Below, in pieces: positions 1 to 40,557 of a stretch of DNA of 41,782 bases. Numbering within the stretch: the stretch's first letter is position 1; each line of letters starts with the position of its first letter. This stretch comes from a virus. The notes beneath the pieces are model-generated. The model was given only the letters and a program-made list of their open reading frames with translations. It made no database searches and was not told the DNA's origin. Location of the stretch: the IMG/VR virus record IMGVR_UViG_3300047455_000334, positions 1 to 41,782 of that record; one strand, 5' to 3'. The translations under genes were made by a program, and so were the position numbers.

Positions 1-60
1 GCTTTTTCCAATTAACGCCAAAATTTTAAAAATAGTAAAATGGCAACCTTCTTTTTTCAA
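1..60 (-). CDS. Probable 5' end of a minus-strand gene, cut by the window edge
   Basis: Reading leftward from a TTG at 60-58 gives an open frame of 20 codons to base 1, beginning MKKEGCHFTIFKILALIG. The TTG is preceded by AAAAAGG at a normal Shine-Dalgarno distance, resembling the AAAGG leader used elsewhere in this window. The frame lies just downstream of, and on the same strand as, the methylglyoxal synthase gene, so it could be the next gene of that transcript. The frame is also open upstream of the TTG for about ten codons, so the exact start is uncertain. A product cannot be named from 20 residues; the stretch is hydrophobic with a basic start. An inverted repeat (ACGCCAAAA at 15-23, TTTTGGCGT at 66-74) brackets it and may be coincidence. 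Confidence 0.3.
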   Translation of the reverse strand, partial: MKKEGCHFTIFKILALIGKS

Positions 61-95
61 AACCTTTTTGGCGTCGAGGAAAATATATACTTATA

Positions 96-476
96 TTATT
101 TACTTCGTTTAAAATATTTTATTAATATAGAGGCAGTCCTATAATTAGTAGCCAGTGGTATATCATGCACGTCACACAACCTCATTAACATATTAATATC
201 TACATCATGTGGGTGTTTATCTAGTGGGTCTCTCATAAATATAACTCCAGTTACCTCACCTCTTACAACCATGGCAGCAATTTCTGCGTCCCCACCTAAT
301 GGACCCGAATTTACTGTATCTACATTATCTATCCCCGCATGCTTTACTTTCTTTCCCGTAGTACCTGTTGTAACAATTTGAACATCTTTTCTGTTAAAGA
401 AAGGTAAACGTTTAGATACAAACGCAACCATGTCTGCTTTTTTGTTATCATGTGCAATAAGTGCAAATCTCATCAA
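96..476 (-). CDS. mgsA: Methylglyoxal synthase
   Basis: Predicted to convert dihydroxyacetone phosphate to methylglyoxal and inorganic phosphate in the cytoplasm, bypassing lower glycolysis. The 126-aa protein contains the diagnostic blocks in order: ALIAHDNKK (residues 5-13), TTGTTG (36-41), SGPLGGD (57-63), RDPLDKHPHDVD (82-93) and PLATN (107-111). By comparison with the E. coli enzyme, the catalytic and phosphate-binding residues are all present: H9, D10, D63 (the general base), D83, H90 and D93. It is somewhat shorter than E. coli MgsA (152 aa), mainly at the ends, but the whole domain is there. MGS-like domains also occur in carbamoyl-phosphate synthase and PurH, but those are parts of larger proteins and lack this His/Asp set. 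The gene overlaps the upstream coiled-coil gene by four bases (ATGA), implying one transcript. A metabolic enzyme in a T4-like phage is unusual; the benefit to the phage is not visible from sequence. Confidence 0.92.
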   Translation of the reverse strand: MMRFALIAHDNKKADMVAFVSKRLPFFNRKDVQIVTTGTTGKKVKHAGIDNVDTVNSGPLGGDAEIAAMVVRGEVTGVIFMRDPLDKHPHDVDINMLMRLCDVHDIPLATNYRTASILIKYFKRSK

Positions 477-901
477 TACCTTGCTTTTAAATCCGGATCG
501 TCTTGGAAACGTTTTAACGCACTATTTAAAATTTGTATATCCGAATTAATTTTCCTAAATTGATTATCCGCTACGTCAAATAGTTTTTTATGACTTAGTC
601 CTTGCGTATTAAAAGTTTTCGCCAAATCTGTTATCCGTTCATTTAATTCAGTGTTACCCGCATACGCATCATCACTCATCTGTTTCCCTAACTTCTCATT
701 ATTATCCAGAACCTCAATTAATTGCTCCCTTACACTATCAAATTTTCCTGAAACCTCATCTTGTGTCATTTGGGTGAGCGAATATAGTCGCGATGACTCC
801 TCCAGCAATTCATCATATGACGATTTTACTTTACGTAGTAACAAAACACCATATACTGTTCCTACTGTTAGTATTCCACTAATAAAATATATTAACTCCA
901 T
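473..901 (-). CDS. Membrane-anchored coiled-coil protein of unknown function
   Basis: The 142-aa product starts with a single hydrophobic segment (about residues 2-22, MELIYFISGILTVGTVYG) followed by a basic LLRKVK boundary, which suggests an N-terminal membrane anchor with the rest in the cytoplasm. Residues 25-135 are rich in charged residues and leucines with heptad-like spacing, as in a long helical coiled coil. No enzymatic motif or named family was recognised. It is the first gene of the minus-strand transcript: a promoter lies at 920-950 and its stop codon overlaps the start of the methylglyoxal synthase gene. It could be a membrane scaffold or host-modifying protein; this is inference. 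Confidence 0.75.
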   Translation of the reverse strand: MELIYFISGILTVGTVYGVLLLRKVKSSYDELLEESSRLYSLTQMTQDEVSGKFDSVREQLIEVLDNNEKLGKQMSDDAYAGNTELNERITDLAKTFNTQGLSHKKLFDVADNQFRKINSDIQILNSALKRFQDDPDLKARY

Positions 902-919
902 TTTCTATTTTTATATACG

Positions 920-950
920 CCAATATACGAACCCCAATCAAAGGGTCCAC
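920..950 (-). promoter_or_regulatory. Early-type promoter for the minus-strand mgsA transcript
   Basis: On the minus strand the order is GTGG (950-947), a 19-base spacer, then TATATTGG (927-920) directly preceded by TTCG. The layout matches the plus-strand promoters at 1461 and 1856, including the TTCG just before the -7 box. The spacer holds a short inverted repeat (GGACCC and GGGTTC with one G-T pair). Transcription would start about 20 bases before the ATG at 901. The -7 box fits the Bacteroidetes pattern TAnnTTTG in most positions. Confidence 0.6.
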
Positions 951-1014
951 GTAGTTTTGTAAAATAAATATAAGTATATTGTATATACGGATGTATAGAT
1001 GTGGATATGTATAA

Positions 1015-1034
1015 GAGAAAGAGTCGTTTTTCTC
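1015..1034. other. Small inverted repeat in the divergent intergenic region
   Basis: GAGAAA (1015-1020) and TTTCTC (1029-1034) can form a six-pair stem with an eight-base loop, followed by CTTTTA. It lies between the minus-strand promoter and the late promoter of the next plus-strand gene. It could be a weak terminator or an operator, and its small size means chance cannot be excluded. Confidence 0.25.
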
Positions 1035-1041
1035 CTTTTAT

Positions 1042-1056
1042 ATATTTATAATAAAA
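1042..1056 (+). promoter_or_regulatory. Late-type promoter (TATTTATA core at 1043-1050)
   Basis: The sequence ATATTTATAATAAAATAAC followed by ATTATG is repeated base for base upstream of the late gene at 7254, with the core 13 bases before the ATG in both. No TTTG box is found 20 bases upstream, unlike the early-type promoters here. The conserved ATATTTATAATAAA is the likely recognition site of the gp55-like factor encoded at 6512-7216. The T4 late box is TATAAATA on the sense strand; here TATTTATA or the overlapping TATAATAA is the counterpart. Confidence 0.7.
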
Positions 1057-1063
1057 TAACATT

Positions 1064-1444
1064 ATGGCCGATTATACAGCAGAACAGTTAAGAGAAGGAG
1101 TTTTAATAACTGATGAATTAGTAGGTGAAACAAATTTTAATTTATCTTTCCCCTCCTCACTATCAGGGTCAGCTTATTTTACTTTTGAGACAAAAAGAAA
1201 CGTAACAGGTTCTTATGAGAATGTAACTCCTTTGGCATTTGGAGATAAAGAAGTTGGAGCATCATCATTAATTAATATTAGTCCAAAAGGTGGAGTAAAT
1301 TATACGGGTTATGTTTGGTCTGCAATAGTTAGAGATGGTGGATCAAGCGTTAATAATGTTATTACATGGACTCCTTCCACTAATGTTGGAGTTGGAACAG
1401 CTTACTTAAGAGGTACAGGTGGTATTTCTGTAAATGTAGTATAA
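1064..1444 (+). CDS. Small putative virion protein of unknown function
   Basis: The 126-aa product begins MADYTAEQLREGVLITDELVG and is rich in Ser, Thr, Gly and Asn with alternating hydrophobic residues, consistent with an all-beta fold. There is no signal peptide, membrane segment or enzymatic motif. The start is fixed by the late promoter core 13 bases upstream; there is no Shine-Dalgarno. The only functional argument is regulation: its promoter is identical to that of the structural gene at 7254, so it is probably made late and may be part of the particle. It stands alone between the minus-strand transcript and the early-type promoter at 1461. Confidence 0.7.
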   Translation: MADYTAEQLREGVLITDELVGETNFNLSFPSSLSGSAYFTFETKRNVTGSYENVTPLAFGDKEVGASSLINISPKGGVNYTGYVWSAIVRDGGSSVNNVITWTPSTNVGVGTAYLRGTGGISVNVV

Positions 1445-1460
1445 AGCTCCCGTGCATCTA

Positions 1461-1492
1461 TTTGGCTACCCGGGATATCCTTCGTATATTTA
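1461..1492 (+). promoter_or_regulatory. Early-type promoter with Bacteroidetes -33/-7 boxes
   Basis: TTTGG (1461-1465) is followed by a 19-base spacer and TATATTTA (1485-1492), which fits the Bacteroidetes primary sigma pattern of TTTG, 19-21 bases and TAnnTTTG except for the last base. The spacer CTACCCGGGATATCCTTCG is nearly identical to the one at 40531-40549. It contains CCCGGG and GGATATCC palindromes and ends in TTCG, as in the sister promoters. Transcription would begin about 40 bases before the ATG at 1539. Confidence 0.75.
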
Positions 1493-1538
1493 CGTGTTCG
1501 AATGTTTCGAGCTATTAAAATTTAAAAATAAAGGTTAT

Positions 1539-1832
1539 ATGTCAAATTTAAACGAAGTGTTAGAATTCATTAAAAATTCAGATTTACAAGAATTTAATAA
1601 AATAAAAAATGCAGTTTCTATTAGAAAATCAGAACTTGCTTGGGATGCTAAATTATCATTTAGAATAGGTGATATGGTTGGTATTGATCATAAAAAAATA
1701 TCTCCTAATGAAACATTTAGAGTTATTAAAATTAATAGTAAGAATATTAAAGTTCAAGGTGATAAAGGTTCTTATTCAGTAGCACCTAGTTTATTGGTTA
1801 AGAAAACATTCACAACAGAAGTTTACAGTTAA
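1539..1832 (+). CDS. Small protein with a possible SH3-like fold, function unknown
   Basis: The 97-aa product starts MSNLNEVLEFIKNSDLQEF. The frame is open further upstream to 1452, but that extension runs through the promoter at 1461-1492; ATG 1539 is chosen because AATAAAGG (1527-1534) lies five bases before it, the same leader used at 1923 and 40598. The N-terminal 40 residues are helical and charged. The rest (FRIGDMVGIDHKKISPNE, then FRVIKINSKNIKVQG) has the strand pattern of a small SH3/KOW-like barrel, a fold often used to bind nucleic acid or protein. That fold assignment is tentative. Expression is probably early. Confidence 0.75.
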   Translation: MSNLNEVLEFIKNSDLQEFNKIKNAVSIRKSELAWDAKLSFRIGDMVGIDHKKISPNETFRVIKINSKNIKVQGDKGSYSVAPSLLVKKTFTTEVYS

Positions 1833-1849
1833 TTTAAAAGTAATGCACA

Positions 1850-1886
1850 GGTAGCTTGGCTCCCCAGGCTACCTTTCGTATATTTA
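1850..1886 (+). promoter_or_regulatory. Early-type promoter overlapping a 10-bp hairpin
   Basis: TTGG (1856-1859), a 19-base spacer and TATATTTA (1879-1886) form the promoter of the DUF932 gene, with transcription starting about 30 bases before the ATG. A strong inverted repeat covers its upstream half: GGTAGCTTGG (1850-1859) pairs with CCAGGCTACC (1864-1873) with one G-T pair and a four-base loop, then TTTCG. In a transcript reading through from 1539-1832 this hairpin could act as a terminator; in DNA it could be a dimeric regulator site inside the promoter. Confidence 0.75.
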
Positions 1887-1922
1887 GGTATAAATAAATA
1901 ATTAAAATTAAATAAAGGTCAT

Positions 1923-2732
1923 ATGTTAAATTTAGAAAGTAGTAAGTTTTTAAACAAGAAAGAGTTAAATGAGATCGCTCCAAGTATCTTCACAATGAAA
2001 CCTTCAAATGAAGTTTCAGAAAAATATACCCACATTCCAACTGAACAAGTTATTGATGATATGGAATTAATGGGTTGGAAACCAGTTGACGCTAAAGAAG
2101 TTAAAGCAAGAACTAAAAACACACAGGGTGTTCAAAAACACTTAGTTATATTTAGAAATGATGATGTTGTTATTAATGGTCAAGATGGTGATGTTGTTTA
2201 TCCTCAAATATTAATTACTAATTCACATGATGGTAAGAATGCTTTCCAATTTACAGCAGGATTATTTAGAATGATTTGTGAAAATGGTTTAGTTATAGCT
2301 ACAGATGAATTTGAAGATTTAAAAATGCGTCATATGGGTTATACGTTTGAAGATTTGCAAGTATTAATTAAAGGTATGGTTGAGAAATTACCTTTAACAG
2401 TAGAAGCAATGAACAAAATGAAAGAAGTTGAATTACAAGAAGAGCAAATGTTTAATCTTGCTAAATCATTTCTAGATATTAGAGTAGAAGGTACTAACAA
2501 TACTTACGATGATCAAGCAATTGATGATGTTCTAGAAGCACAACGTTCAAAAGATGAAGGTAATATGCTTTGGGAAGTATTTAATAGAGTTCAGGAAAAT
2601 ATTATTGAAGGTAATTTTGAATACAAAACACCATCAGGAAAAGTTCGTCAAGCTAGAATTATTAAGAATTTCAAGCAAGACCAAGATGTGAATAAAAAAA
2701 TGTTTAATAAAGCATTAGAATTAGTAGCATAA
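1923..2732 (+). CDS. DUF932 family phage/plasmid protein
   Basis: The 269-aa product matches the DUF932 family (phage/plasmid-like proteins) as I know it. Recognisable blocks are VQKHLVIFRNDDVVING (about residues 69-85), DVVYPQILITNSHDGKNAF (89-107), TAGLFRMICENGLVIAT (111-127) and the LPLTVEAMNKMKEVELQEEQM helix (156-176). The length is close to the usual 260-300 aa. The biochemical role of this family is not established; members are common on phages and plasmids. The start is set by AATAAAGG at 1911-1918. Its own early-type promoter lies at 1850-1886, and its stop codon overlaps by one base the start of the following lipoprotein gene, so the two are probably co-translated. Confidence 0.88.
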   Translation: MLNLESSKFLNKKELNEIAPSIFTMKPSNEVSEKYTHIPTEQVIDDMELMGWKPVDAKEVKARTKNTQGVQKHLVIFRNDDVVINGQDGDVVYPQILITNSHDGKNAFQFTAGLFRMICENGLVIATDEFEDLKMRHMGYTFEDLQVLIKGMVEKLPLTVEAMNKMKEVELQEEQMFNLAKSFLDIRVEGTNNTYDDQAIDDVLEAQRSKDEGNMLWEVFNRVQENIIEGNFEYKTPSGKVRQARIIKNFKQDQDVNKKMFNKALELVA

Positions 2733-3346
2733 TGAAAAAGTTTATTTACATAACCTTAATAAGTTTCTTCTGGGCATGTAGCCCAGAGGAGCTTATTGAA
2801 AATTACCCTTGTATAGGTGATTGTGGTACAGCTTTTTACATAGATCCCTTAGTATCACCTGGTGTTTTTCAAGACAGTAATGGATATTGGCATATTGAAC
2901 ATCAAGGTATACAATATTTTACTATAAAAGGTAATACTAGTGAATTACACCCCGATTATGTTGTTAATGGAGTTCCATTAATTGAAACTGTATTTGATTC
3001 TGATTATTGGATTTGGATAAATGGAATTAGTTTTACAGTACCTTTATATAGTGTATTAGGGTACTTTACAGGTAGTAATTTTAACAATCCAATTCCCATA
3101 GGTGATTTAACTTATACAATAGAAGATATGGCTAATAACCATCCACCACTTAATATAGTAGGTTATTCATATAATCCTAATTCTGATATTCAAAGTTTAG
3201 GTACTTATAGTAAGTATAATACCCACCCACAACAACAAATATTTTTTGATAATCAAATGGTAGGTGACACAGCTAAAGTTTTTATTAAAACTATATTTAA
3301 TAATGATATAGAAGTAGAAAAAGAATTTAAAATAATATTCGAATGA
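2732..3346 (+). CDS. Phage-encoded lipoprotein
   Basis: The 204-aa product starts with a typical lipoprotein signal, MKKFIYITLISFFWAC, with C16 as the predicted lipid-modified cysteine. The residues after it (SPEEL) carry two acidic residues close to the cysteine, as in the export signal that sends Bacteroidetes lipoproteins to the cell surface. The mature part is about 188 residues, aromatic and beta-rich (GYWHIEHQG, YWIWINGISF), and has C27 and C31 that could form a disulphide. No named family was recognised. A phage lipoprotein made from an early promoter suggests superinfection exclusion or receptor masking, as with the T5 Llp lipoprotein; this is an analogy, not homology. It overlaps the next gene by four bases (ATGA). 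Confidence 0.8.
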   Translation: MKKFIYITLISFFWACSPEELIENYPCIGDCGTAFYIDPLVSPGVFQDSNGYWHIEHQGIQYFTIKGNTSELHPDYVVNGVPLIETVFDSDYWIWINGISFTVPLYSVLGYFTGSNFNNPIPIGDLTYTIEDMANNHPPLNIVGYSYNPNSDIQSLGTYSKYNTHPQQQIFFDNQMVGDTAKVFIKTIFNNDIEVEKEFKIIFE

Positions 3347-3819
3347 GTCTAGATAAAATAACAGTCCAAGAAGCTAAACAGTTTATTCCACTAAAAGAAA
3401 ATTATGGGAATACGGATTTAGAACATGCTAGATATTTTACCCTAACACCCAGCGAAAAAGGGGGTGGATGGGAAAATGTAACGTATTATACCGATAAAAA
3501 ATATGGAATATATGCGGATAAGGGTGATGGGGATCAATGGGTATATGTTTTATCTAACCCAACTCAACCTGGGTTGTTAAAAATAGGTTATACTAAAAAA
3601 CTCCCAGAAGAAAGAGCTAAACAAATATCTTCAGCAACAGGTGTTGCTTTACCATATAAAGTAGAATGGGCATACCAATGTTTTAATGGTGAAATGGTAG
3701 AAAGAGAAGTACACCATAAATTAAAGGCACAACGTGTCAATAGTAGTAAAGAATTTTTCCAAATTAGCTTGGAAGAGGCAAAAGAAACAATTAACTTAAT
3801 AGGCAATAAATTTAAATAA
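3343..3819 (+). CDS. T5orf172/MUG113-type (GIY-YIG superfamily) domain protein
   Basis: The 158-aa protein ends in a domain of the T5orf172/MUG113 group within the GIY-YIG nuclease superfamily. The first motif is VYVLSNP (67-73) followed by LLKIGYT (78-84), then R91, the EREVHHKL helix with E120 and H124 (120-127), and EFFQIS (137-142). Residues 1-60 form a separate, aromatic, charged N-terminal part without a clear match. Family members are found in phages and poxviruses; nuclease activity is assumed for some but not shown for most. The start overlaps the lipoprotein stop (ATGA), so it belongs to the transcript that begins at the 1856 promoter. Confidence 0.8.
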   Translation: MSLDKITVQEAKQFIPLKENYGNTDLEHARYFTLTPSEKGGGWENVTYYTDKKYGIYADKGDGDQWVYVLSNPTQPGLLKIGYTKKLPEERAKQISSATGVALPYKVEWAYQCFNGEMVEREVHHKLKAQRVNSSKEFFQISLEEAKETINLIGNKFK

Positions 3820-3820
3820 T

Positions 3821-4015
3821 ATGTCAAAACAAGAAGAATTAGACCAACAAAAATCAGAATTAATTAATGATTTAGTAGCTACATCAACTGTAATGGATGA
3901 AGTATGGAGATACCACCCAGACAATCCAGAAAAAAAAGATGTTGTTAAAGAATATGAAATATTAAAGCAAATTCAAAAAGATATTGAATCTGAATTAGCG
4001 GATCTAGATAAATAA
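3821..4015 (+). CDS. Small helical protein, unknown
   Basis: A 64-aa, highly charged product (begins MSKQEELDQQKSELINDLV) with heptad-like hydrophobic spacing across most of its length, suggesting a two-helix or coiled-coil protein. It starts one base after the preceding stop codon and has no Shine-Dalgarno of its own, so translation is probably coupled. No family was recognised. Confidence 0.6.
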   Translation: MSKQEELDQQKSELINDLVATSTVMDEVWRYHPDNPEKKDVVKEYEILKQIQKDIESELADLDK

Positions 4016-4019
4016 TACA

Positions 4020-4033
4020 TATTTATAATTAAA
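4020..4033 (+). promoter_or_regulatory. Late-type promoter before the nuclease gene
   Basis: TATTTATA (4020-4027) followed by ATTAAA repeats the late core seen at 1043 and 7233. It is placed 13 bases before the ATG at 4041, the same distance as in those two. This would allow late expression of the two genes that follow even though they also lie in the early transcript. Confidence 0.6.
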
Positions 4034-4040
4034 CATTATT

Positions 4041-4385
4041 ATGTATATTTATAAAGCAAAATGTGAAAGAGTAGTAGATGGGGATACTATTGATGCTACT
4101 ATTGATCTTGGTTTTGATACTTGGAAAAAAATTAGAATTAGATTAGTTGGTATTAATGCTGCCGAGTCTCGTACCCGAGATTTAGAAGAAAAGGCAAGAG
4201 GTTTAGCTGCTAAACAATATGTTAAAGATATTTTAATTAAACATAATAATGAATTTATATTACACTCTCAAGGTGTAGGTAAGTATGGTAGATGTTTGGG
4301 TGATATATTTTTAGGTGATGTTAAGTTAAATGATTTATTAATTACAGAAGGACATGCTGTAGAATATTTTGGAGGTAAAAGATGA
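4041..4385 (+). CDS. Thermonuclease-like (SNase family) nuclease
   Basis: The 114-aa product is a compact staphylococcal-nuclease domain (TNase/SNc). The VVDGDTIDATIDLGF strand pair (11-25) is followed by RIRLVGINAAESR (32-44) and HSQGVGKYGRCLGDIF (75-90). Catalytic residues of the family map to R34, E42 and R84, and the calcium ligand D21 to D15; the second calcium ligand D40 is replaced by N39, a change seen in other family members. It lacks a signal peptide, so it should act in the cytoplasm, possibly in host DNA breakdown. It has a late-type promoter at 4020 and overlaps the next gene by four bases. Confidence 0.88.
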   Translation: MYIYKAKCERVVDGDTIDATIDLGFDTWKKIRIRLVGINAAESRTRDLEEKARGLAAKQYVKDILIKHNNEFILHSQGVGKYGRCLGDIFLGDVKLNDLLITEGHAVEYFGGKR

Positions 4386-4807
4386 TAGATAAAGATAAAA
4401 TATTTCAATTATTTGTAGATGGAAAAGAAATTAGTGATGAGAAAACTAAATCTGAAATAAAAGATTTTATGAATGGTCCTTTTGCTAAGATTGGAATGTT
4501 TGTTAAGTTAATTCAAAATCACTATATTTTTCATCAAAAGTTAGAAAAATTTCTTAAAAAAGAACAACCTAATTATAATGTTGAATCTACAAAGGAGGCA
4601 TCTGAATTTACTGTTTATAATAGAGCTTGGTCTTATATTAAAAATATTAGTTTAGAAGACCATGATGATATTCATGCTATTATAAATTTTGATAATAAAA
4701 CATTTTATAAGGCATTAGATAGTGCAGTTACATTTTTTGAACAATATGAAGAATACGAAAAATGCGCACATCTTCATAAAATAAAAGAAGTAGTTAAAGA
4801 AATTTAA
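4382..4807 (+). CDS. Unknown helical protein
   Basis: A 141-aa, mostly helical, charged protein (begins MIDKDKIFQLFVDGKEISDE) without signal peptide, membrane segment or cysteine cluster. No family was recognised. Its ATG overlaps the nuclease stop codon (ATGA), so it is probably translated with the nuclease. The gene ends just before the hairpin and promoter-like region at 4815-4846. Confidence 0.65.
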   Translation: MIDKDKIFQLFVDGKEISDEKTKSEIKDFMNGPFAKIGMFVKLIQNHYIFHQKLEKFLKKEQPNYNVESTKEASEFTVYNRAWSYIKNISLEDHDDIHAIINFDNKTFYKALDSAVTFFEQYEEYEKCAHLHKIKEVVKEI

Positions 4808-4814
4808 AAAATAA

Positions 4815-4846
4815 TTAGGATATACAAAATATCCCTCGTACATTAG
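4815..4846 (+). promoter_or_regulatory. Diverged early-type promoter with perfect hairpin
   Basis: TTAG (4815-4818), a 20-base spacer and TACATTAG (4839-4846), again preceded by TCG, mimic the early-type promoters. The upstream part is a perfect inverted repeat, GGATAT (4818-4823) and ATATCC (4829-4834), with a five-base loop. It lies 10 bases after the stop of the preceding gene, so it may instead or also act as a terminator. The -7 box is a poorer match than in the others. Confidence 0.45.
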
Positions 4847-4850
4847 TATT

Positions 4851-4920
4851 ACAGGTTTTGTAAGAAAGGGAATAAGAAGGGATAGGAATAAAGGTAATAA
4901 AGGGTTAAGGAATACCCTGT
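4851..4920 (+). other. Purine-rich untranslated leader with competing hairpins
   Basis: This gene-free stretch is strongly purine-rich on the plus strand (4861-4912) with repeated AAGG and AAAGGG words. AGGGT (4901-4905) can pair with ACCCT (4914-4918), while ACAGG (4851-4855) can pair with CCTGT (4916-4920); the two pairings exclude each other. It would form the 5' leader of the gene at 4935 if the promoter at 4815-4846 is used. A regulatory RNA is possible, but no known class matches. Confidence 0.3.
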
Positions 4921-4934
4921 TAATATTATAAATT

Positions 4935-5138
4935 ATGAGAAATAGAAATTTAATTAATAAAAGGTTAGAACAATTAGATCATACATTAATTAACCTCCAG
5001 CGTATTGTAAATACAAAAGAACCACTTTCAACTTACAAGGAAGGGATTGAAAAAGCAAAAAATTTAGTAGAAGATCTTAGATCAATGGTAGAAAGAGAAC
5101 CTAATTCAGATAAAGAACAAAATAGTTCACTAGGATAA
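4935..5138 (+). CDS. Small coiled-coil protein, unknown
   Basis: A 67-aa charged helical product (begins MRNRNLINKRLEQLDHTL) with regularly spaced Leu/Ile residues up to about position 52 and a polar tail. There is no Shine-Dalgarno; the AT-rich stretch before the ATG resembles the other non-SD starts here. It is the first gene after the leader at 4851-4920. No family was recognised. Confidence 0.6.
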   Translation: MRNRNLINKRLEQLDHTLINLQRIVNTKEPLSTYKEGIEKAKNLVEDLRSMVEREPNSDKEQNSSLG

Positions 5139-5139
5139 A

Positions 5140-5454
5140 ATGAATAGGTTTAACAAACTTATTAATGCCTTTGGTAATTTAGATTTAATATATGAGGGTA
5201 TTAAAAATAAAGTTTTTGTTAAAGATGATGTAGAACAAATAGCTAAAATTAGATGGGGTATTTGTACAAGTTGTAATTTATTTGATACTAAAGGTACCCA
5301 TTGTGCAGTCCCAGGTACTCAACCTTGTTGTAAAGATTGTGGGTGTATCCTTACATTAAAAGTTAGATCTTTATCAGCGTATTGTCCTAAAAACAAATGG
5401 GCTGCTTTTATGCCCAAAGAAATGGAAGAACAGTTAAAAAATAATATAAAATAA
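5140..5454 (+). CDS. Cysteine-rich, probably zinc-binding protein
   Basis: The 104-aa product has eight cysteines in its middle and C-terminal part: C42 and C45 (CTSC), C55, C63 and C64, C67 and C69 (CKDCGC), and C82. The CxxC pairs and the position of C82 suggest one or two zinc-ribbon-like sites. Residues 1-35 are helical. Such proteins can bind DNA, RNA or RNA polymerase, but nothing in the sequence decides between these. It sits one base after the previous stop and a few bases before the HD-domain gene, within the same transcript. Confidence 0.72.
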   Translation: MNRFNKLINAFGNLDLIYEGIKNKVFVKDDVEQIAKIRWGICTSCNLFDTKGTHCAVPGTQPCCKDCGCILTLKVRSLSAYCPKNKWAAFMPKEMEEQLKNNIK

Positions 5455-5459
5455 AAGTT

Positions 5460-6233
5460 ATGAAACTAACAGCAGAACAAATTCAATCAAATTGGGAAAT
5501 ATTTTTAGATAATATAAATGTTCACATCTCAGGAAATAGAGGAGAACAATTATCTAGTTTTTATAAACGTTATGAAGAACGTGTTATATTAATGCCCGCA
5601 GCTCATAAAAAAGAATACCATGGAGCATTCCCGGGAGGATATGTTGCCCATGTAAATAGAGTAGTTGAAGGATCTCTTAGGTTATATGATATGTGGGAAG
5701 AAATGGGATGTGATATGACTACATTTACTAAAGAAGAATTAGTATTTTCTGCTATTAACCATGATTTAGGTAAAATGGGAGATAAAGAACATGAATCTTA
5801 TATCCCCCAGACGGATCAATGGAGAAAAGATAAATTAGGTGAAGATTATATGTTTAATAAAAAATTAGCGTTTTGTTCTGTCCCAGATCGTGGTTTATTT
5901 CTTCTTCAACAACATGACATTTCTTACTCATTTAATGAAATGGTAGCGATCCAAACCCATGATGGGTTATATGATGTTGCTAATGAAAAATATTTAAAAA
6001 CATTCATGCCAGAACAAAAACCTCGCACGTCTCTACCATATATTTTACATCAAGCTGATTTAATGGCCGCGCGTATTGAATTTGAGCAAGAATGGTTACC
6101 AAAGTTTTCTAAAGATAGTGTGGAACAGCCAAAGAAAAATTATACATTATCTGGCAATATAAAATCCTCTAAAACTAAAGCACTAAATAGTGTTGCAAGT
6201 ACGGGATTAAAAAACATGTTAGATAGTTTATGA
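5460..6233 (+). CDS. HD-domain phosphohydrolase
   Basis: The 257-aa protein carries the metal-binding residues of the HD superfamily in order: H64 (YVAHVNR), H101-D102 (NHDLGKMGD), H152, H167 (THDG) and D200 (HQADLMAAR). HD enzymes hydrolyse phosphomonoesters or phosphodiesters of nucleotides, including dNTPs, cyclic nucleotides and alarmones; the substrate here cannot be read from the motifs. Spacing between H101-D102 and the second pair of histidines is longer than in simple dNTPases and resembles cyclic-nucleotide-type HD proteins, but this is weak evidence. A role in nucleotide supply or in degrading a host signalling nucleotide are both plausible. Its stop overlaps the next start (ATGA). 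Confidence 0.85.
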   Translation: MKLTAEQIQSNWEIFLDNINVHISGNRGEQLSSFYKRYEERVILMPAAHKKEYHGAFPGGYVAHVNRVVEGSLRLYDMWEEMGCDMTTFTKEELVFSAINHDLGKMGDKEHESYIPQTDQWRKDKLGEDYMFNKKLAFCSVPDRGLFLLQQHDISYSFNEMVAIQTHDGLYDVANEKYLKTFMPEQKPRTSLPYILHQADLMAARIEFEQEWLPKFSKDSVEQPKKNYTLSGNIKSSKTKALNSVASTGLKNMLDSL

Positions 6234-6508
6234 TATTAGAAATTATTATTATAATATTAGGTTTATTAGTCGTTATCTTTGGATATACGACTTTTAACCT
6301 TTTACGTAAAAATGAAAGAGCAGAAGATATAATAGTTTCTCAACAGGAATTTATCAATAAAATAGATAAACAAATTACATTTACAGAAAAAAAATTAAAT
6401 CAAATAGACGAAAAAGGTTTATTTAAAAGTGATGATGAAATAGGTTGGTTTTTTAATGAAATAAAGGTCTTACAAAAAAAATTATCTCAATTTAAAATTA
6501 ATCTTTAA
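6230..6508 (+). CDS. Small single-pass membrane protein with coiled coil
   Basis: A 92-aa product with one strongly hydrophobic N-terminal segment (residues 2-22, rich in Ile and Leu), then a basic LLRKNER boundary and a charged helical region to the end (KLNQIDEKGLFKSDDEIG). The topology suggests an inner-membrane anchor with a cytoplasmic helix. It overlaps the HD-domain gene by four bases, so the two are probably coupled; a membrane partner for the HD protein is a guess. No family was recognised. Confidence 0.7.
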   Translation: MILEIIIIILGLLVVIFGYTTFNLLRKNERAEDIIVSQQEFINKIDKQITFTEKKLNQIDEKGLFKSDDEIGWFFNEIKVLQKKLSQFKINL

Positions 6509-27038: not shown

Positions 27039-29723
27039 ATGGCAAAACAATTTAATTATAAAAGTCAAATAGAACAAGGAGAAATAATCCAGTCATGGCA
27101 TGTTTCCCAATCTGTTGATGCCTTTTCCGCAGCTAATCAAGCAGCATATGATATTTCAGTATCTGGGTCTTTTAAAGCTACCAGTTCAGTTTTCATACAA
27201 CCTGATGTTTTGCCACAACAAAGTAACTCCTATATTTTATCTTATAATAACACTACAGGACAAGTTTTTAAACAATTAGGTAGTACAAGTGGTACTTCAG
27301 GTTTACCAGGAACATCTGGTACAAGTGGAACATCAGGTCCAGGTGGCGCACCAGGTACAAGTGGAACATCAGGTACTTCGGGATCTGGTACATCAGGAAC
27401 AAGTGGATCAGGTACAAGTGGTTCAAGCGGTACATCTGGAGAAAATGGTACTTCTGGAACGTCAGGAACAAGTGGAGATAGTGGAACATCTGGCACAAGT
27501 GGTTCATCAGGTACAAGCGGAACATCTGGTCCCGGTGGAGCACCAGGTACTAGTGGCACAAGCGGTACTTCAGGATCAGGAACAAGTGGAACAAGTGGTT
27601 CAAGTGGTACTTCAGGTGAAGCAGGAACAAGTGGTTCAAGCGGTACATCTGGAGAAAATGGTACAAGTGGAACTTCAGGAGAAAATGGTACATCAGGCTC
27701 AAGTGGAACATCAGGATCGGGCACAAGTGGTACTTCAGGTACAAGTGGAACATCAGGATTAGGCACAAGCGGTACTTCAGGTACAAGTGGAACATCTGGT
27801 CCCGGTGGAGCACCAGGTACTAGTGGTTCAAGTGGTACTTCTGGAGAAGCAGGTACTAGTGGATCAAGTGGAACTTCAGGAGAAAATGGTACTTCAGGTA
27901 CAAGTGGAACATCAGGATTAGGCACAAGTGGTACTTCAGGTACAAGCGGTGATGGTACATCAGGAACGTCTGGAACATCAGGAAGCGGTACATCAGGAAC
28001 AAGTGGTTCAAGTGGAACTTCAGGAGAAAATGGTACAAGTGGAACATCTGGAGAAAATGGTACCTCAGGTACAAGTGGAACATCGGGGTTAGGTACAAGC
28101 GGAACAAGTGGCTCATCTGGCACCTCTGGATCAGGTACTTCTGGAACAAGTGGATCAGGTACAAGTGGAACTTCCGGAGAAGCGGGTACAAGTGGCTCAT
28201 CTGGTACTTCTGGTACCTCTGGTTTAGGCACAAGCGGTACTTCAGGTACATCAGGATTAGGAACAAGTGGGTCAAGTGGAACAAGTGGATCAGGTACAAG
28301 TGGTACTTCTGGAAGTGGTACATCTGGATCAAGTGGAACTTCAGGAGAAAATGGTACAAGCGGAACTTCAGGAGAAAATGGTACCTCAGGTACAAGTGGA
28401 ACATCAGGATTAGGTACTAGTGGCTCATCTGGTACTTCTGGATCAGGTACTTCAGGTACAAGTGGATCAGGTACAAGTGGAACATCAGGAGAAACAGGTA
28501 CATCGGGTTCTTCAGGAACATCAGGTTCATCTGGAACAAGCGGCTCATCTGGAACCTCAGGTACAAGTGGTTTAGGCACAAGTGGCTCATCTGGTACATC
28601 AGGATCAGGTACAAGTGGTACTTCTGGAAGTGGTACATCTGGAACTTCGGGAACAAGTGGTGAAGCAGGTACAAGTGGAACTTCAGGAGAAAATGGTACT
28701 TCGGGTACAAGTGGAACATCAGGATTAGGTACTTCTGGAACAAGTGGAAATGGAACATCTGGTTCTTCAGGAACTTCAGGGTCGGGCACATCAGGAACAA
28801 GTGGCTCATCTGGTACAAGTGGAACAAGTGGTGAAGCAGGAACTAGTGGCTCAAGTGGTACATCAGGTTCAAGTGGAACTAGTGGTTCTTCAGGTACAAG
28901 TGGCTCATCAGGTACTTCTGGATCTGGAACATCTGGTACAAGTGGAGATGGTACTTCTGGTACTAGTGGTTCATCAGGAACATCAGGAGAAGCGGGTACA
29001 AGTGGAACATCAGGAAATGGTACATCTGGTACATCAGGTGAACAAGGAACTTCTGGTACAAGTGGTACATCAGGTGGTGGAGGTGGAATTTCAAATGTAC
29101 AAAACTTAGCAGTAAGATACGTTGCTATTAGTGATTCTAATGGAAATGTAGAAATATTATCCACTGGAGATTTAAATGCTGGTTTAACATGGCAAAGAAC
29201 GGCTTCAACTGTAACAGTAACATCAACAGCTCATGGTTTAGCTAATGGAGATTATATTGTAGTAAGAGGTGGAGCAGATGATTATTTATATGTAGCAATC
29301 TCAAATGTTCAAACAGATGAATTTGATTACACTTCAGCAACTTCTGGAACAGCTAATGGTACAGATGGAGCTTATATCCCAGCATTTGATGTAACAAGTT
29401 TTTCAAGTGCAGGGTTTACAGTAACTCCAGCAACTACAGGAGATTGTCAGATAATTTCAATAAAAACATATATAGACGCTGCAGAAAATTCAACATTTGT
29501 TGTAACAGTAAATGGTGATAGAGAAAATGGAGCAGGTGAAAATGATGCTCTTAGTACTAGAGTTCCACCTTCTATTGTATGGTGGGATGCATCATCAAAT
29601 ATAGTAGTCGAAAATAAAACTACAGGTCTTAGTTTTTCTAAAAATACAGATTTTGATACTTATAGTATTGGTGGTGGTAGTATTGATAGTGGTGGAGAAG
29701 CTATTTGTATGTTATTATTCTAA
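27039..29723 (+). CDS. Gly-Thr-Ser-repeat tail fibre (894 aa)
   Basis: Residues 1-80 form an N-terminal domain (MAKQFNYKSQIEQGEIIQSW, later YDISVSGSFKATSSVFI) like the attachment part of other phage fibres. Residues 81-678 are almost wholly G-x-y triplets of the GTS, GSS, GEA and GEN type, interrupted at intervals by two-residue steps (GS, GL, GD, GN) that shift the phase. Proline is nearly absent except in GPGGAPG inserts. Residues 680-894 form a compact C-terminal domain (VTSTAHGLANGDYIVVRG, VPPSIVWWDASSNIVV) that may trimerise or bind the receptor. It is probably a trimeric collagen-like or polyglycine-type stalk. Long antisense frames over the repeat are by-products of its composition. 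Confidence 0.82.
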   Translation: MAKQFNYKSQIEQGEIIQSWHVSQSVDAFSAANQAAYDISVSGSFKATSSVFIQPDVLPQQSNSYILSYNNTTGQVFKQLGSTSGTSGLPGTSGTSGTSGPGGAPGTSGTSGTSGSGTSGTSGSGTSGSSGTSGENGTSGTSGTSGDSGTSGTSGSSGTSGTSGPGGAPGTSGTSGTSGSGTSGTSGSSGTSGEAGTSGSSGTSGENGTSGTSGENGTSGSSGTSGSGTSGTSGTSGTSGLGTSGTSGTSGTSGPGGAPGTSGSSGTSGEAGTSGSSGTSGENGTSGTSGTSGLGTSGTSGTSGDGTSGTSGTSGSGTSGTSGSSGTSGENGTSGTSGENGTSGTSGTSGLGTSGTSGSSGTSGSGTSGTSGSGTSGTSGEAGTSGSSGTSGTSGLGTSGTSGTSGLGTSGSSGTSGSGTSGTSGSGTSGSSGTSGENGTSGTSGENGTSGTSGTSGLGTSGSSGTSGSGTSGTSGSGTSGTSGETGTSGSSGTSGSSGTSGSSGTSGTSGLGTSGSSGTSGSGTSGTSGSGTSGTSGTSGEAGTSGTSGENGTSGTSGTSGLGTSGTSGNGTSGSSGTSGSGTSGTSGSSGTSGTSGEAGTSGSSGTSGSSGTSGSSGTSGSSGTSGSGTSGTSGDGTSGTSGSSGTSGEAGTSGTSGNGTSGTSGEQGTSGTSGTSGGGGGISNVQNLAVRYVAISDSNGNVEILSTGDLNAGLTWQRTASTVTVTSTAHGLANGDYIVVRGGADDYLYVAISNVQTDEFDYTSATSGTANGTDGAYIPAFDVTSFSSAGFTVTPATTGDCQIISIKTYIDAAENSTFVVTVNGDRENGAGENDALSTRVPPSIVWWDASSNIVVENKTTGLSFSKNTDFDTYSIGGGSIDSGGEAICMLLF
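27279..29072 (+). repeat. Degenerate tandem repeat encoding (GTS)n stalk 1
   Basis: About 1.8 kb of 9-bp units (Gly-Thr-Ser or Gly-Ser-Ser codons) with interspersed 6-bp units that cause the two-residue phase slips. Codons for the same residues vary freely (GGT/GGA/GGC; ACA/ACT/ACC; AGT/AGC/TCA/TCT/TCG), so the DNA is far less repetitive than the protein. The G+C content is visibly higher than in flanking genes. Confidence 0.9.
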
Positions 29724-29740: not shown

Positions 29741-29776
29741 ATGTTGCAAAAATTTAATTCCCAAAATTTGAAATGA
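29741..29776 (+). other. Eleven-codon leader ORF coupled to the giant fibre gene
   Basis: ATG 29741 opens an 11-codon frame, [11 protein letters not shown], whose stop codon overlaps the fibre start (ATGA at 29773-29776). The peptide resembles the N-terminal YKQFNAQDL of the protein at 25939. It is either a relic of a duplicated gene start or a coupling leader. There is no other candidate signal between 29724 and 29772 apart from an A-rich stretch. Confidence 0.4.
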
Positions 29777-32700
29777 GCAAAAAACAATTATTTTATGGAC
29801 AGTTTACAGTTTCACCTTCTGAAAGGTATACTAATCTAAGGGGAGATTATACTGCTGGAGATAACAAAGTTACTAATATAGTAACAACATCTGGTGACCC
29901 AGTCCCATGGAATCTTATGAAAGTAGGGCAACGACTTAAAAGCTCTGGGGAGCTTACAGATTATGCTACTATTACAGCTTTTGATCCATCTAGTGCGGAA
30001 ATTACAGTAGACCAAAATGCATTACAAGATGGTTCAAGTCAGTTTACTCAATGGTGGGTTGCAGAAAATACTTATTTTTTAGAATCAGGTTCATTATTAG
30101 CACCTAATGGAAATATTAGAGTTAGAAATATAACAGGTAGTAATGATAGTTATTATATAGCAGGATCTCCAAGTGGTTCATATGCCATTTTAGGAGCACA
30201 AGCTATAGGAGGCACAGAACAAGTAGGTGTATTTCATAAGTATGACATTACTGATACTTTTTATGTAAAAAATTCTGCTAATGAAGCTTCTTATCTTATT
30301 ACTTGGGGTGAAAAAGGCAACGAGAATGATTGGGATTCATCTTTATTTTTAGGTACAAGTCAAAAAATGGCTATTGTATCTTTATCTACAACAGAATCAT
30401 TAGCACCTATATATTCAAATAATGCATCAGGTCTTAATCTATCACAAACTTCACAATTTGCAGCTTATCAAATTGAAGTTCAAGAATTTTTTGATGACCT
30501 AACAGTTTCAGATATATATGAAGATGATGTCTTAATAAAAAGAAATACTAGAGGTATAAATTTTACAGGTGATGTAGAAGTAACTCTTGATGCATCAATA
30601 GATGATGTAGTAAAAGTAAATATAGTGGGCACAAGTGGTGCTGGAGGAACAAGCGGCTCTTCAGGTACAAGTGGTGAAGCTGGTACATCAGGTTCAAGTG
30701 GAACATCCGGAGAAGCTGGTACAAGTGGCTCTTCAGGAACATCAGGAAGTGGAACATCAGGTTCTAGTGGTACAAGTGGTGAAGCAGGAACTTCGGGATC
30801 ATCTGGAACTTCAGGTGAAGCAGGAACTTCTGGTTCATCAGGAACTTCAGGAAATGGCACAAGTGGCTCATCTGGTACTTCAGGAAATGGTACATCTGGA
30901 TCTTCAGGAACAAGCGGCTCTTCAGGTACAAGTGGTGAAGCAGGTACAAGTGGTTCATCAGGAACATCAGGTGAAGCAGGAACATCAGGTTCTAGTGGTA
31001 CTAGTGGTTTAGGTACATCAGGAAGTTCTGGTACATCAGGAGATGGTACATCTGGATCTTCAGGAACAAGCGGTTCTTCAGGTACAAGTGGCGAAGCAGG
31101 TACAAGTGGCTCATCTGGTACCTCAGGTACAAGTGGTGAAGCAGGAACTTCTGGTTCATCAGGAACTTCAGGTGAAGCAGGAACAAGTGGTTCATCTGGT
31201 ACAAGTGGAGATGGTACATCTGGATCATCTGGTACAAGTGGCTCTTCAGGAACATCGGGTGAAGCAGGTACAAGTGGTTCATCAGGAACATCAGGAACAT
31301 CAGGTGAAGCAGGAACATCAGGTTTAAGTGGTACATCAGGTACAAGCGGAGAAGCAGGAACAAGCGGTTCTTCAGGTACATCTGGAAATGGAACATCTGG
31401 AACAAGTGGATCAGGTACAAGTGGAACATCAGGCTCAAGTGGAACTTCGGGTGAAGCAGGTACAAGTGGTTCATCAGGAACATCAGGTGAAGCAGGAACA
31501 TCAGGTTCAAGTGGGACATCTGGTACAAGTGGAGAAGCAGGTACAAGTGGCTCATCTGGTACTTCAGGAAATGGAACATCTGGATCATCTGGTACAAGTG
31601 GCTCTTCAGGAACAAGTGGCGAAGCAGGTACAAGTGGTACATCAGGCTCAAGCGGAACTTCAGGTGAAGAGGGTACATCAGGTTCTTCAGGAACTTCAGG
31701 AAATGGTACATCAGGTACAAGTGGCTCTTCAGGTACATCAGGATCAAGTGGAACAAGTGGTGAAGCAGGAACTTCGGGTTCTAGTGGAACATCTGGGAAC
31801 GGAACTTCAGGTTCTAGTGGTACAAGTGGCTCTTCAGGTACAAGCGGAGAAGCAGGAACAAGCGGTTCTTCTGGAACATCAGGTTCAAGTGGAACATCTG
31901 GGAATGGAACTTCAGGAACAAGTGGATCATCTGGTACTTCAGGAAATGGCACTTCAGGTTCTAGTGGTACAAGTGGCGAAGCAGGTACAAGCGGTTCATC
32001 TGGAACATCAGGATCTGGTACATCTGGTTCTAGTGGTACTAGTGGCTCTTCTGGAACATCTGGAAGTGGTACAAGTGGTACATCTGGTACATCCGGTTCT
32101 TCTGGAACAAGTGGCGAAGCAGGAACTTCAGGCTCAAGTGGTACATCAGGAAATGGAACTTCAGGCTCTTCAGGAACAAGTGGCGAAGCAGGAACATCAG
32201 GATCATCTGGAACTAGTGGATCATCTGGTACTTCGGGCGAAGCAGGTACAAGTGGTTCAAGTGGCACTTCAGGATCAGGAACAAGTGGGTCTTCGGGTAC
32301 ATCAGGATCAAGTGGCACAAGTGGTGAAACAGGAACTTCAGGTTCTAGTGGTACATCAGGAACAAGTGGTGAAGCAGGTACAAGCGGTTCATCAGGAACT
32401 TCTGGATCAGGTACATCAGGCTCAAGTGGTACAAGTGGTAGCTCGGGAACTTCAGGAAGTGGTACTTCAGGAACAAGTGGCGAAGCAGGAACATCTGGTT
32501 CTAGTGGAACATCCGGATTTGGTACATCTGGAACATCAGGTACAAGTGGTGATAATAGACCTGAGGGTCCTTATGAATACAATGTAGTTGGTGATGAAGA
32601 TACAGGTATTCAACCTGTAAGTGGTTCAAATGTAGCTTCGGGTTGTATGTCAAATATTGGGGGAGGAACAAATAATACTTCTGGAGGAAATTGCTCAGCA

Positions 32701-35700
32701 ATAGGAGGGGGTGAAAGTAATTTTATTGATAGTGCTAATTATAGTTACATTGGTGGTGGGGGACTAAATATAATTAGTGGCTCAGATAGTGGATTTAGTG
32801 TTATTGCCGGTGGTGTTTCGAATAAAATGACTGTACATGAAGGTCAGGTTGGATGTAGCTTTATCGGAGGTGGACAAAATAACCATATGTCTGCATCAAA
32901 TGCTTGTAATATATCTTTTAGTTCTATTATTGGTGGGTATGGAAATAGTATAACAGCAAGTAACAATACTCTTAGTACTGTTACTATTTTAGGTGGTTAT
33001 CAAAATACTATTTTAGATGACTTTTCGGTTAGTAAGGCCGCAATTTTAGGTGGAGGATTTAACTGTCTTAAACATTCCAATACTTTTATTCTTGGGTCAA
33101 ATATTACTACAACACAAATAGACACAACTTTTGTAAACCATCTTAATATTTCTGATGTTGATACAGGAACCTCAAATGATGTATTAATTTTATCAAGTAA
33201 TAATACTGTTGAAAAGAAAACAATAACATCAGGAACAAGTGGAACAAGTGGTGAAGCAGGAACTAGTGGCTCAAGTGGTACATCTGGTTCAAGTGGTACT
33301 AGTGGTTCTTCAGGTACAAGTGGCTCAGGTACAAGTGGTTCAAGTGGTACTTCAGGAAGTGGCACTTCAGGTTCATCTGGTACAAGTGGGTCAGGAACAT
33401 CCGGTTCAAGCGGAACTAGTGGCTCTAGTGGCACATCAGGCTCATCTGGAACGTCAGGAAGTGGCACAAGTGGTTCAAGTGGAACTTCGGGATCATCTGG
33501 TACAAGCGGTTCAAGTGGTACATCAGGAAGTGGTACATCTGGATCATCTGGTACAAGTGGTTCTTCTGGAACATCAGGATCAGGAACTTCAGGTTCATCA
33601 GGAACATCAGGTTCAAGCGGAACTAGTGGTTCTAGTGGAACATCAGGATCAGGAACTTCAGGTTCTTCAGGAACAAGCGGCTCAAGTGGTACATCTGGTT
33701 CATCTGGAACAAGTGGGTCAGGAACAAGCGGCTCTTCAGGTACATCTGGATCAAGTGGAACAAGCGGTAGTTCAGGAACATCAGGAAGCGGTACGTCTGG
33801 TTCTTCAGGAACAAGTGGCTCAAGCGGAACATCAGGTTCATCTGGAACAAGTGGTTCAGGTACTAGTGGATCTAGTGGAACATCAGGTTCATCTGGAACA
33901 AGTGGATCAGGAACATCTGGATCAAGTGGTACTAGTGGCTCTTCAGGTACATCTGGATCAAGCGGTACTAGTGGTTCTTCGGGCACAAGTGGTTCGGGAA
34001 CATCTGGATCAAGTGGCACATCAGGTTCAAGTGGTACAAGTGGCTCATCAGGTACAAGTGGCTCAGGCACAAGTGGCTCATCAGGAACATCAGGATTGGG
34101 AACATCAGGTACAAGTGGAACATCTGGTCCTGGTACAGTAGGTCCAACTGGACCTACAGGATTTTTATTTAAATCAGAATTTGATGGATATAATACATCA
34201 GCACCAGGTACTCAGACTTCAGGAGAATTTCAATTGGGTTCAGGTACAAGTTCAACTTCTAATATCACATTTTTAAATATAAGTAAATTTAATTCAGATT
34301 CTGTAGATATAGATAATTTATTAGCTTCAATTGGTACTACTAATTTAAAACTAGGTATTTATAAAGTTTCTGACCCCACTAAATTTATTGTTTTAAATAT
34401 TACTAGTAATGGTACTACTGGTACAAATTCAAGAGTTTATAGCGCAACAACTTCGGCTGCAGAAAGTAGTGGAGCTGTTTTAACTGATGGTGATCTTTGT
34501 GGATTTATTCTTTCCGGAAATAATGGTACTTCAGGAACAAGTGGCACATCAGGAACAAGTGGCACTTCAGGAACAAGTGGCACATCAGGAACAAGTGGCA
34601 CATCAGGTACATCAGGTGAACAAGGCCCACCGGGTAATAGTCGCCCAGATGGTCCTTATGAATATTTTAATGCAAGTTCATTTACATCAGGAATACAACC
34701 AGTTAGTGGGTCTAATAAATCTAATGGTAACTTTTCAAGTATAGGTGGAGGTACTTTAAATACAGCTTCAGGAAATTGTAGTTTTATAGGAGGTGGTACT
34801 AAAAACACAGGTTCAGCACCATGTAGCTTTATAGGAGGTGGTAAAAGTAATTATAACTCAGGTGGTGAAAGTTCAATTGTAGGAGGAATTTCAAATACAT
34901 CTTCTGGTGATAAAACATTCATTGGAGGTGGAAAACAAAATAATATATATGGGGGCTCAGGTTATTATGCTGGTTTTAGTATAATTGGCTCTGGGTTTTG
35001 TAATAAAATATCTCAGGCCTATTATGGTGGTATCTTTACAGGATGTAAAAATGAAATATCAAGTTATGGTAATAATGCATCTTTAATAGTTGGGGGTAGA
35101 CTAAATAAACATCAAAGTTACTATGGGAACTCAGTAATAGTTGGTGGATTTAATAATATAAATAAAGGAGGCACTGCTTTTATGGGTGGTGGTATGAATA
35201 ATTATAATTATCTCAATAGTAATTATAATGTTGTAGTTGGTGGTCGTAAAAACTGTATAACTAGTAGGGGTAGTGGACATACAATGGTAGGTGGTGTTTG
35301 TAATACAATTAATTCTTTCTACAGTGGTTACCAAGTCGATTCGAATTCATCAATTTTAGGAGGTAGTTTAAATACAATACAAAATAATACATCATACCAA
35401 AACGCTACTTTCAGTTTTAATGTTATAGCAGGCGGTTGTAGAAACAAAATTTGTCAGTTTAGTTTAGGCACTAAAAATTCAGGAAGTAGTAACTTTATAG
35501 GATCAGGACAATTAAACACGGCATCAGGAAACTTTAATTTTATAGGATCAGGATGTAAAAACGTATTAAGAGCATCTAATACCGTAATTGTAGGTGGTTT
35601 CTCAAATACTGCATCAGGTAATTTTACATCAATAGTAGGAGGCTTTAAAAATACGGCATCAGCTACTTTTTCATCAATTGTAGGAGGTACTCGAAATAGT

Positions 35701-40526: not shown

Positions 40527-40557
40527 TTGGCTACCCGGGCTATCTTTCGTATATTTA
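40527..40557 (+). promoter_or_regulatory. Early-type promoter
   Basis: TTGG (40527-40530; TTTG in the overlapping register at 40526), a 19-base spacer and TATATTTA (40550-40557). The spacer CTACCCGGGCTATCTTTCG differs from that at 1466-1484 in only a few bases although the copies are 39 kb apart. This repetition argues for a conserved phage element. Transcription would start about 35 bases before the ATG at 40598. Confidence 0.75.

Follow-up and report, generated by a model that had tools for sequence, protein, structure and literature searches.

Cyanophages carry host-derived genes of central carbon metabolism, such as those for transaldolase, zwf, and gnd. The locus described here likewise places a host-derived central-carbon enzyme in a phage, but this enzyme, methylglyoxal synthase (MgsA), acts on dihydroxyacetone phosphate (DHAP), yields a toxic product, and appears to belong to phages of Bacteroidota rather than of cyanobacteria. 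In the open-access literature that we searched, phage mgsA has one passing mention, in a Lake Baikal virome in which it is listed among auxiliary metabolic genes (PMC8066274). That mgsA lies on a large phage scaffold of 120 kb whose closest virotype is Caulobacter phage Cr30 and is a single list entry, the main text holding no active-site, phylogeny, context, or slot analysis. In bacterial MgsA, D71 has been identified as catalytic together with H19 and H98, and K23, S65, and T45-G49 as binding phosphate, with roles in DHAP binding and catalysis described for H19, K23, T45-G49, S65, G66, D71, and H98 (PMC7843640).

Identity and active site of the phage MgsA

The window that we analyzed is a complete IMG/VR record of 41,782 bases. 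We confirmed two minus-strand open reading frames near its start, at 96-473 (125 aa) and 473-901 (142 aa). The first, mgsA (96..473, minus strand; TAA stop at 96-98), most likely begins at the ATG at 473, the start position in nearly all relatives, and its residue numbers are therefore one lower than those counted from the TTG at 476. The original prediction had numbered from that TTG in naming H9, D10, D63, D83, H90, and D93 as catalytic; in ATG-473 numbering these positions are H8, D9, D62, D82, H89, and D92.

In the profile search against the MGS family that had been proposed as a check, the protein passed the NCBIfam MgsA equivalog model NF003559 (146.1 bits versus a cut-off of 84) and Pfam PF02142 (MGS; 50 bits versus 24) and just missed the stricter model TIGR00160 (138 bits versus 146.9). 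All eleven distinct PDB sequence matches were MgsA (best E=1e-32), and PHROGs held no family for the window protein. An AlphaFold2 model (pLDDT 85) had as its best Foldseek matches the MgsA proteins of B. subtilis, Borrelia, Thermus, and E. coli (TMq 0.79-0.86), with E values of 1e-12 to 1e-7 for MgsA chains versus 3e-4 or weaker for CPS MGS domains. As the original prediction implied, the window protein also stood apart from PurH/CPS-type MGS domains in our tree, in which the PurH and CarB domains lay far outside MgsA on very long branches. A PurH/CPS-type domain is ruled out by the stand-alone 125-aa gene, the full catalytic set, the Foldseek matches, and the tree.

We then counted active-site columns in an alignment of 43 dereplicated phage proteins with E. 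coli MgsA. The equivalents of E. coli H19, D20, K23, T45, T47, T48, S65, G66, D71, D91, H98, D101, and R107 were identical in the window protein and in 43/43 phage proteins, and the G49 equivalent was kept in 42/43; position 46 lay outside the counted columns, and TGTTG is intact in the window protein. Compared with short-form bacterial MgsA (EC 4.2.3.3), as in Thermus sp. GH5 and B. subtilis, the phage protein is alike in fold, in length, and in all catalytic and phosphate-binding residues. Neither has the E. coli C-terminal tail with R150, which was absent from all bacterial relatives aligned. The phage protein departs from the short form by the viral-clade residues R22 and Y111 and by an additional residue close to position 49, and the window enzyme is encoded on a phage genome. 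Sequence and modeled fold identify the product of 96-473 as a true MgsA whose active site is intact. These findings agree with the earlier view of a complete, conserved, and probably active phage-borne enzyme, and we consider it highly probable that the phage-encoded MgsA is enzymatically active.

A cargo slot behind a backbone gene

Baseplate wedge proteins of the T4 type are encoded in the window, whose nearest isolate is Flavobacterium phage vB_FspM_immuto (Immutovirus). The label “T4-like” given to the window phage holds in a wide sense only: the wedge is of T4 type, and immuto is about 46% identical in one baseplate wedge protein. Besides this wedge protein, the two phages have in common a DUF932 backbone gene (1923..2732, plus strand; 43% identical), a T5orf172 gene, a SegE-type gene labeled “NAD synthetase” in immuto's record, and a similar gene order; in immuto, tblastn found neither mgsA nor a relative of the coiled-coil gene. 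The common backbone genes and their order place the window phage with Immutovirus-like phages, and the carrier appears to be myovirus-like. With immuto as the nearest isolate and with the MgsA tree described below, we infer that the hosts are Bacteroidota. The plus strand also encodes collagen-repeat proteins at 27039-29723 (894 aa) and 29773-37329 (2518 aa), the longer of which ends in an endosialidase-chaperone (Peptidase_S74) domain. The GC content of these genes is partly above that of the rest of the window, and long antisense frames within them probably reflect the repeats.

Upstream of mgsA lies a coiled-coil gene (473..901, minus strand; 142 aa), a backbone gene kept in relatives with and without mgsA. 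The mgsA ATG shares one base with its stop codon (TGATG), in place of the four-base overlap first described. The coiled-coil protein is predicted to have an N-terminal hydrophobic segment followed by one long helix, in keeping with the membrane-anchored coiled coil that had been proposed. We found no Pfam or PHROG family for this protein, chance-level scores only in NCBIfam, no tblastn match in GenBank phages, and nothing similar among predicted viral structures. Most members of this phage group have the gene divergent from the backbone gene that adjoins the unit (1064..1444, plus strand; 126 aa, and 115-309 aa in relatives), whose product had no match in Pfam or PHROG.

What follows the coiled-coil stop varies among relatives. 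In L084, L085, L086, L088, L089, L090, L091, and L096 the slot is empty, with a structured RNA element directly after the stop. The window, L083, L092, and L004 have mgsA inserted exactly between the stop and the RNA element. An unrelated gene of about 200 aa occupies the slot in L094 and L097, and a longer relative of that gene does so in L087 (203-262 aa overall; L094 6408-7019, L087 6409-7197, and L097 6409-7029); two copies of it were scanned and had no Pfam match. The empty-site junction falls exactly at the coiled-coil stop codon. Read from these arrangements, mgsA is a clean one-gene insert into a single slot with three states: empty, mgsA, or other gene.

Since 95 bases separate mgsA from the contig end and close bacterial relatives exist, we considered that it might be a functionless, recently acquired host gene or the product of a contig-end chimera. 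The search of metagenomes for the same gene pair recovered the coiled-coil gene and mgsA in the same order on L083, L092, and L004, contigs of three further metagenomes, and in L004 mgsA lies well inside a 64-kb contig. DNA identity between the window and L083 was 93% over 1-1038 and 91% over 1462-4032, and L082 matched window positions 364-6497 at 99.9%. The same gene order in three other assemblies, one of them contig-internal, rules out an assembly chimera of bases 1-950, a risk that the original prediction had raised. A functionless gene is also hard to reconcile with dN/dS values of 0.01-0.08 versus close relatives, obtained from pairs restricted to relatives with unsaturated synonymous sites, and with a deep phage clade spread across many contexts. 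We therefore regard this explanation as exceedingly improbable, and the dN/dS values show strong purifying selection on mgsA.

The one-base overlap in the window and the adjacency of the two genes in L083, L092, and L004 would also fit mgsA and the coiled-coil protein forming one functional module, such as a membrane-tethered enzyme. In most relatives, however, the coiled-coil gene stands alone or with another gene, and it is missing from the mgsA surroundings in about 23 other phage contexts. Furthermore, genomes that share only 28-36% identity in their coiled-coil proteins have mgsA genes that are 94-97% identical, which argues that the two did not travel together as a pair, with the caveat that other genes of this phage group are also mosaic. 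We thus rejected the pair as a general rule and consider a functional module very unlikely; the pairing first proposed gives way to a backbone gene with a variable successor: mgsA, no gene, or an unrelated one.

A promoter-like motif, TTCGTATATT, precedes the coiled-coil/mgsA unit at 922..931 (minus strand) and occurs in 4 copies in the window versus 0.11 expected. Upstream of the coiled-coil gene it is invariant in 13/13 aligned sequences, and it precedes this gene in relatives with and without mgsA alike. This conservation ties the motif to the coiled-coil gene and not to mgsA specifically, and mgsA is the last gene of a short reverse-strand unit preceded by a conserved promoter-like motif. 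The idea that mgsA has a reverse-strand transcript and promoter of its own is therefore retained for the unit and its conserved motif and dropped for mgsA itself. Further copies of TTCGTATATT lie on the plus strand at 1481-1490, 1875-1884, and 40546-40555; two are within near-identical TTTGGCTACCCGGG...TTCGTATATTT and the third is within similar sequence. The sites likely represent a phage promoter family. A sigma-70 scan of the E. coli type gave no signal above chance. A tRNA-Met gene lies between TTCGTATATT and the coiled-coil gene in L089 (5444-5517) and L090 (4715-4788), and L092 and L093 have tRNA-like stretches there that neither ARAGORN nor Rfam called.

Directly behind the slot, at 4..83 on the minus strand, is the conserved structured RNA element, with its core GTTGCCATTTTA at 36-47; in relatives it lies, for example, at L084 6430-6540, L088 824-932, and L096 6409-6525. 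The element folds into two nested helices, the outer one being TTTTCC/GGAAAA. The inner helix has four pairs with compensatory changes, giving a covariation score reached by 0/500 shuffles, and the core is invariant across 13 aligned sequences. In relatives, a GC-rich hairpin resembling an intrinsic terminator follows the element; the contig end removes that hairpin in the window. In Rfam, the window had no match at the gathering threshold and the L084 copy had none above threshold, and a pattern scan of IMG/VR returned 12 stretches, all on contigs already collected. A second exact copy of GTTGCCATTTTA lies at 36366-36377 (minus strand), antisense to the tail-fibre-like gene at 29773-37329, making two copies in the window versus 0.01 expected. 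The plus strand at this site reads TAAAATGGCAAC and contains an in-frame ATG. The second copy may possibly be an antisense target of the RNA, or it may be due to chance. This covarying RNA is a lead distinct from mgsA.

Distribution and descent of viral MgsA

A profile-guided scan of IMG/VR detected at least 329 viral MgsA relatives, of which the best 80 were kept. Viral mgsA contexts fell into about 24 synteny groups, with carrier contigs of up to 297 kb, and a T4-type major capsid gene was present on 14 of 40 mgsA records. Phage MgsA proteins formed one clade (support 100/99) rooted within Bacteroidota MgsA. Inside this clade were 14 sequences of one small-genome Bacteroidota lineage and one “proteobacterium” MAG, these bacterial members having one match per genome. 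The lineage is the order of L098 (G041, G057-G074), with genomes of about 1.4-2.5 Mb and a single viral-clade MgsA.

All 43 phage proteins had R22 and Y111, residues that were rare or absent among the bacteria sampled first. The small-genome lineage shares R22, with position 111 mostly Q or K and only partly Y. An AU test of a phage-only MgsA clade gave p=0.108, as computed before 13 further bacterial sequences joined the tree. Because the small-genome lineage and the “proteobacterium” MAG fall inside, among inner forks that the tree does not resolve, the clade may or may not be of purely viral origin, and the lineage could be donor or recipient of the gene. The clade is largely viral and spread across many phage genomes.

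Among 50,697 GenBank phage records we obtained 22 mgsA matches, all unannotated and at <60% identity. Five of the matching records were inspected and were marked UNVERIFIED, from wastewater or faeces. We took these matches for probable bacterial DNA and therefore did not count them as phage mgsA, leaving no convincing cultured carrier among these records.

Metabolic context and possible benefit of mgsA

In the window, mgsA is a host-type gene on a true viral genome and is kept by selection, as expected of an auxiliary metabolic gene. We regard it as evenly poised that mgsA is, in full, a facultative, catalytically competent metabolic cargo gene on a Bacteroidota phage. In bacterial relatives, mgsA adjoins phosphofructokinase (L102) or lies near phosphofructokinase and GAPDH (L110). 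Its phage neighbors include IMPDH/GMP reductase-, phosphoribosyltransferase-, and sugar-isomerase-family genes as well as DAHP/KDO8P-synthase- and cytidylyltransferase-family genes, and further neighbors were read as thymidylate synthase. We also observed phoH on 13 of 16 mgsA records of >110 kb, although large phages commonly carry phoH and this count covers mgsA carriers only. Glyoxalase was found on 0/40 mgsA records and aldo-keto reductase likewise on 0/40; such absence is weak evidence because most records are fragments.

The glycolysis-gene context in bacteria, the nucleotide and sugar-nucleotide neighbors in phages, and phoH lead us to favor relief of triose phosphate together with return of phosphate. 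MgsA enzymes turn DHAP into methylglyoxal and phosphate. When phage nucleotide synthesis starves phosphate-dependent lower glycolysis (GAPDH) of phosphate, triose phosphate would accumulate; phage MgsA would then drain the accumulated DHAP and return phosphate to the infected cell. Detoxification of methylglyoxal would rest on the host, since the mgsA records have no glyoxalase or aldo-keto reductase match. Phosphate or triose-phosphate relief may thus be the main benefit, a reading that we hold tentatively and with slightly less than even confidence.

The recurrent nucleotide and sugar-nucleotide genes beside phage mgsA would also suit a redirection of carbon, either as a bypass of lower glycolysis against sugar-phosphate stress, the relief of which has been discussed for bacterial MgsA (PMC12873402), or as a slowing of flux that would leave upper intermediates to pentose phosphate, nucleotide, and nucleotide-sugar synthesis. 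Draining DHAP, however, takes carbon out of the upper pathway, and transaldolase, which usually accompanies pentose-phosphate steering by phages, was present on only 1 of 40 records, in a match interrupted by stops. We consider carbon redirection rather unlikely.

Another possibility is that the benefit lies in methylglyoxal itself, a diffusible electrophile that would halt the growth or transcription of the host or damage superinfecting phages; release of phosphate would then be incidental. Methylglyoxal is mutagenic and toxic (PMC7843640, PMC12873402), and on 40 mgsA records lacking glyoxalase and aldo-keto reductase matches it could accumulate. The missing detoxifying enzyme fits such a poisoning role equally well as detoxification by the host. 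Furthermore, the single-gene swap slot that holds mgsA is a common place of host-takeover accessory genes. Methylglyoxal would nevertheless expose the phage's own DNA and proteins too; elsewhere, mgsA is often among metabolic genes and not known counter-host genes, and its bacterial relatives adjoin glycolysis genes. A benefit from methylglyoxal itself seems to us about as unlikely as carbon redirection. More doubtful still is the stronger form, in which the viral MgsA clade would be a phage-adapted toxin maker, exchanged as a one-gene cassette, that builds up methylglyoxal without a detoxifier and so arrests the host or damages competing phages. The conserved chemistry is silent on which product is selected, phosphate or methylglyoxal.

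An enzyme gene with a toxic product that is under strong purifying selection and present on hundreds of uncultured phage contigs, in about 24 contexts, implies a benefit to its carriers. These findings raise the question of what a phage gains from methylglyoxal synthesis, be it phosphate, control of carbon flow, or a chemical weapon, and the occupied, empty, and alternative states of the slot provide a natural comparison for cargo exchange among phages.
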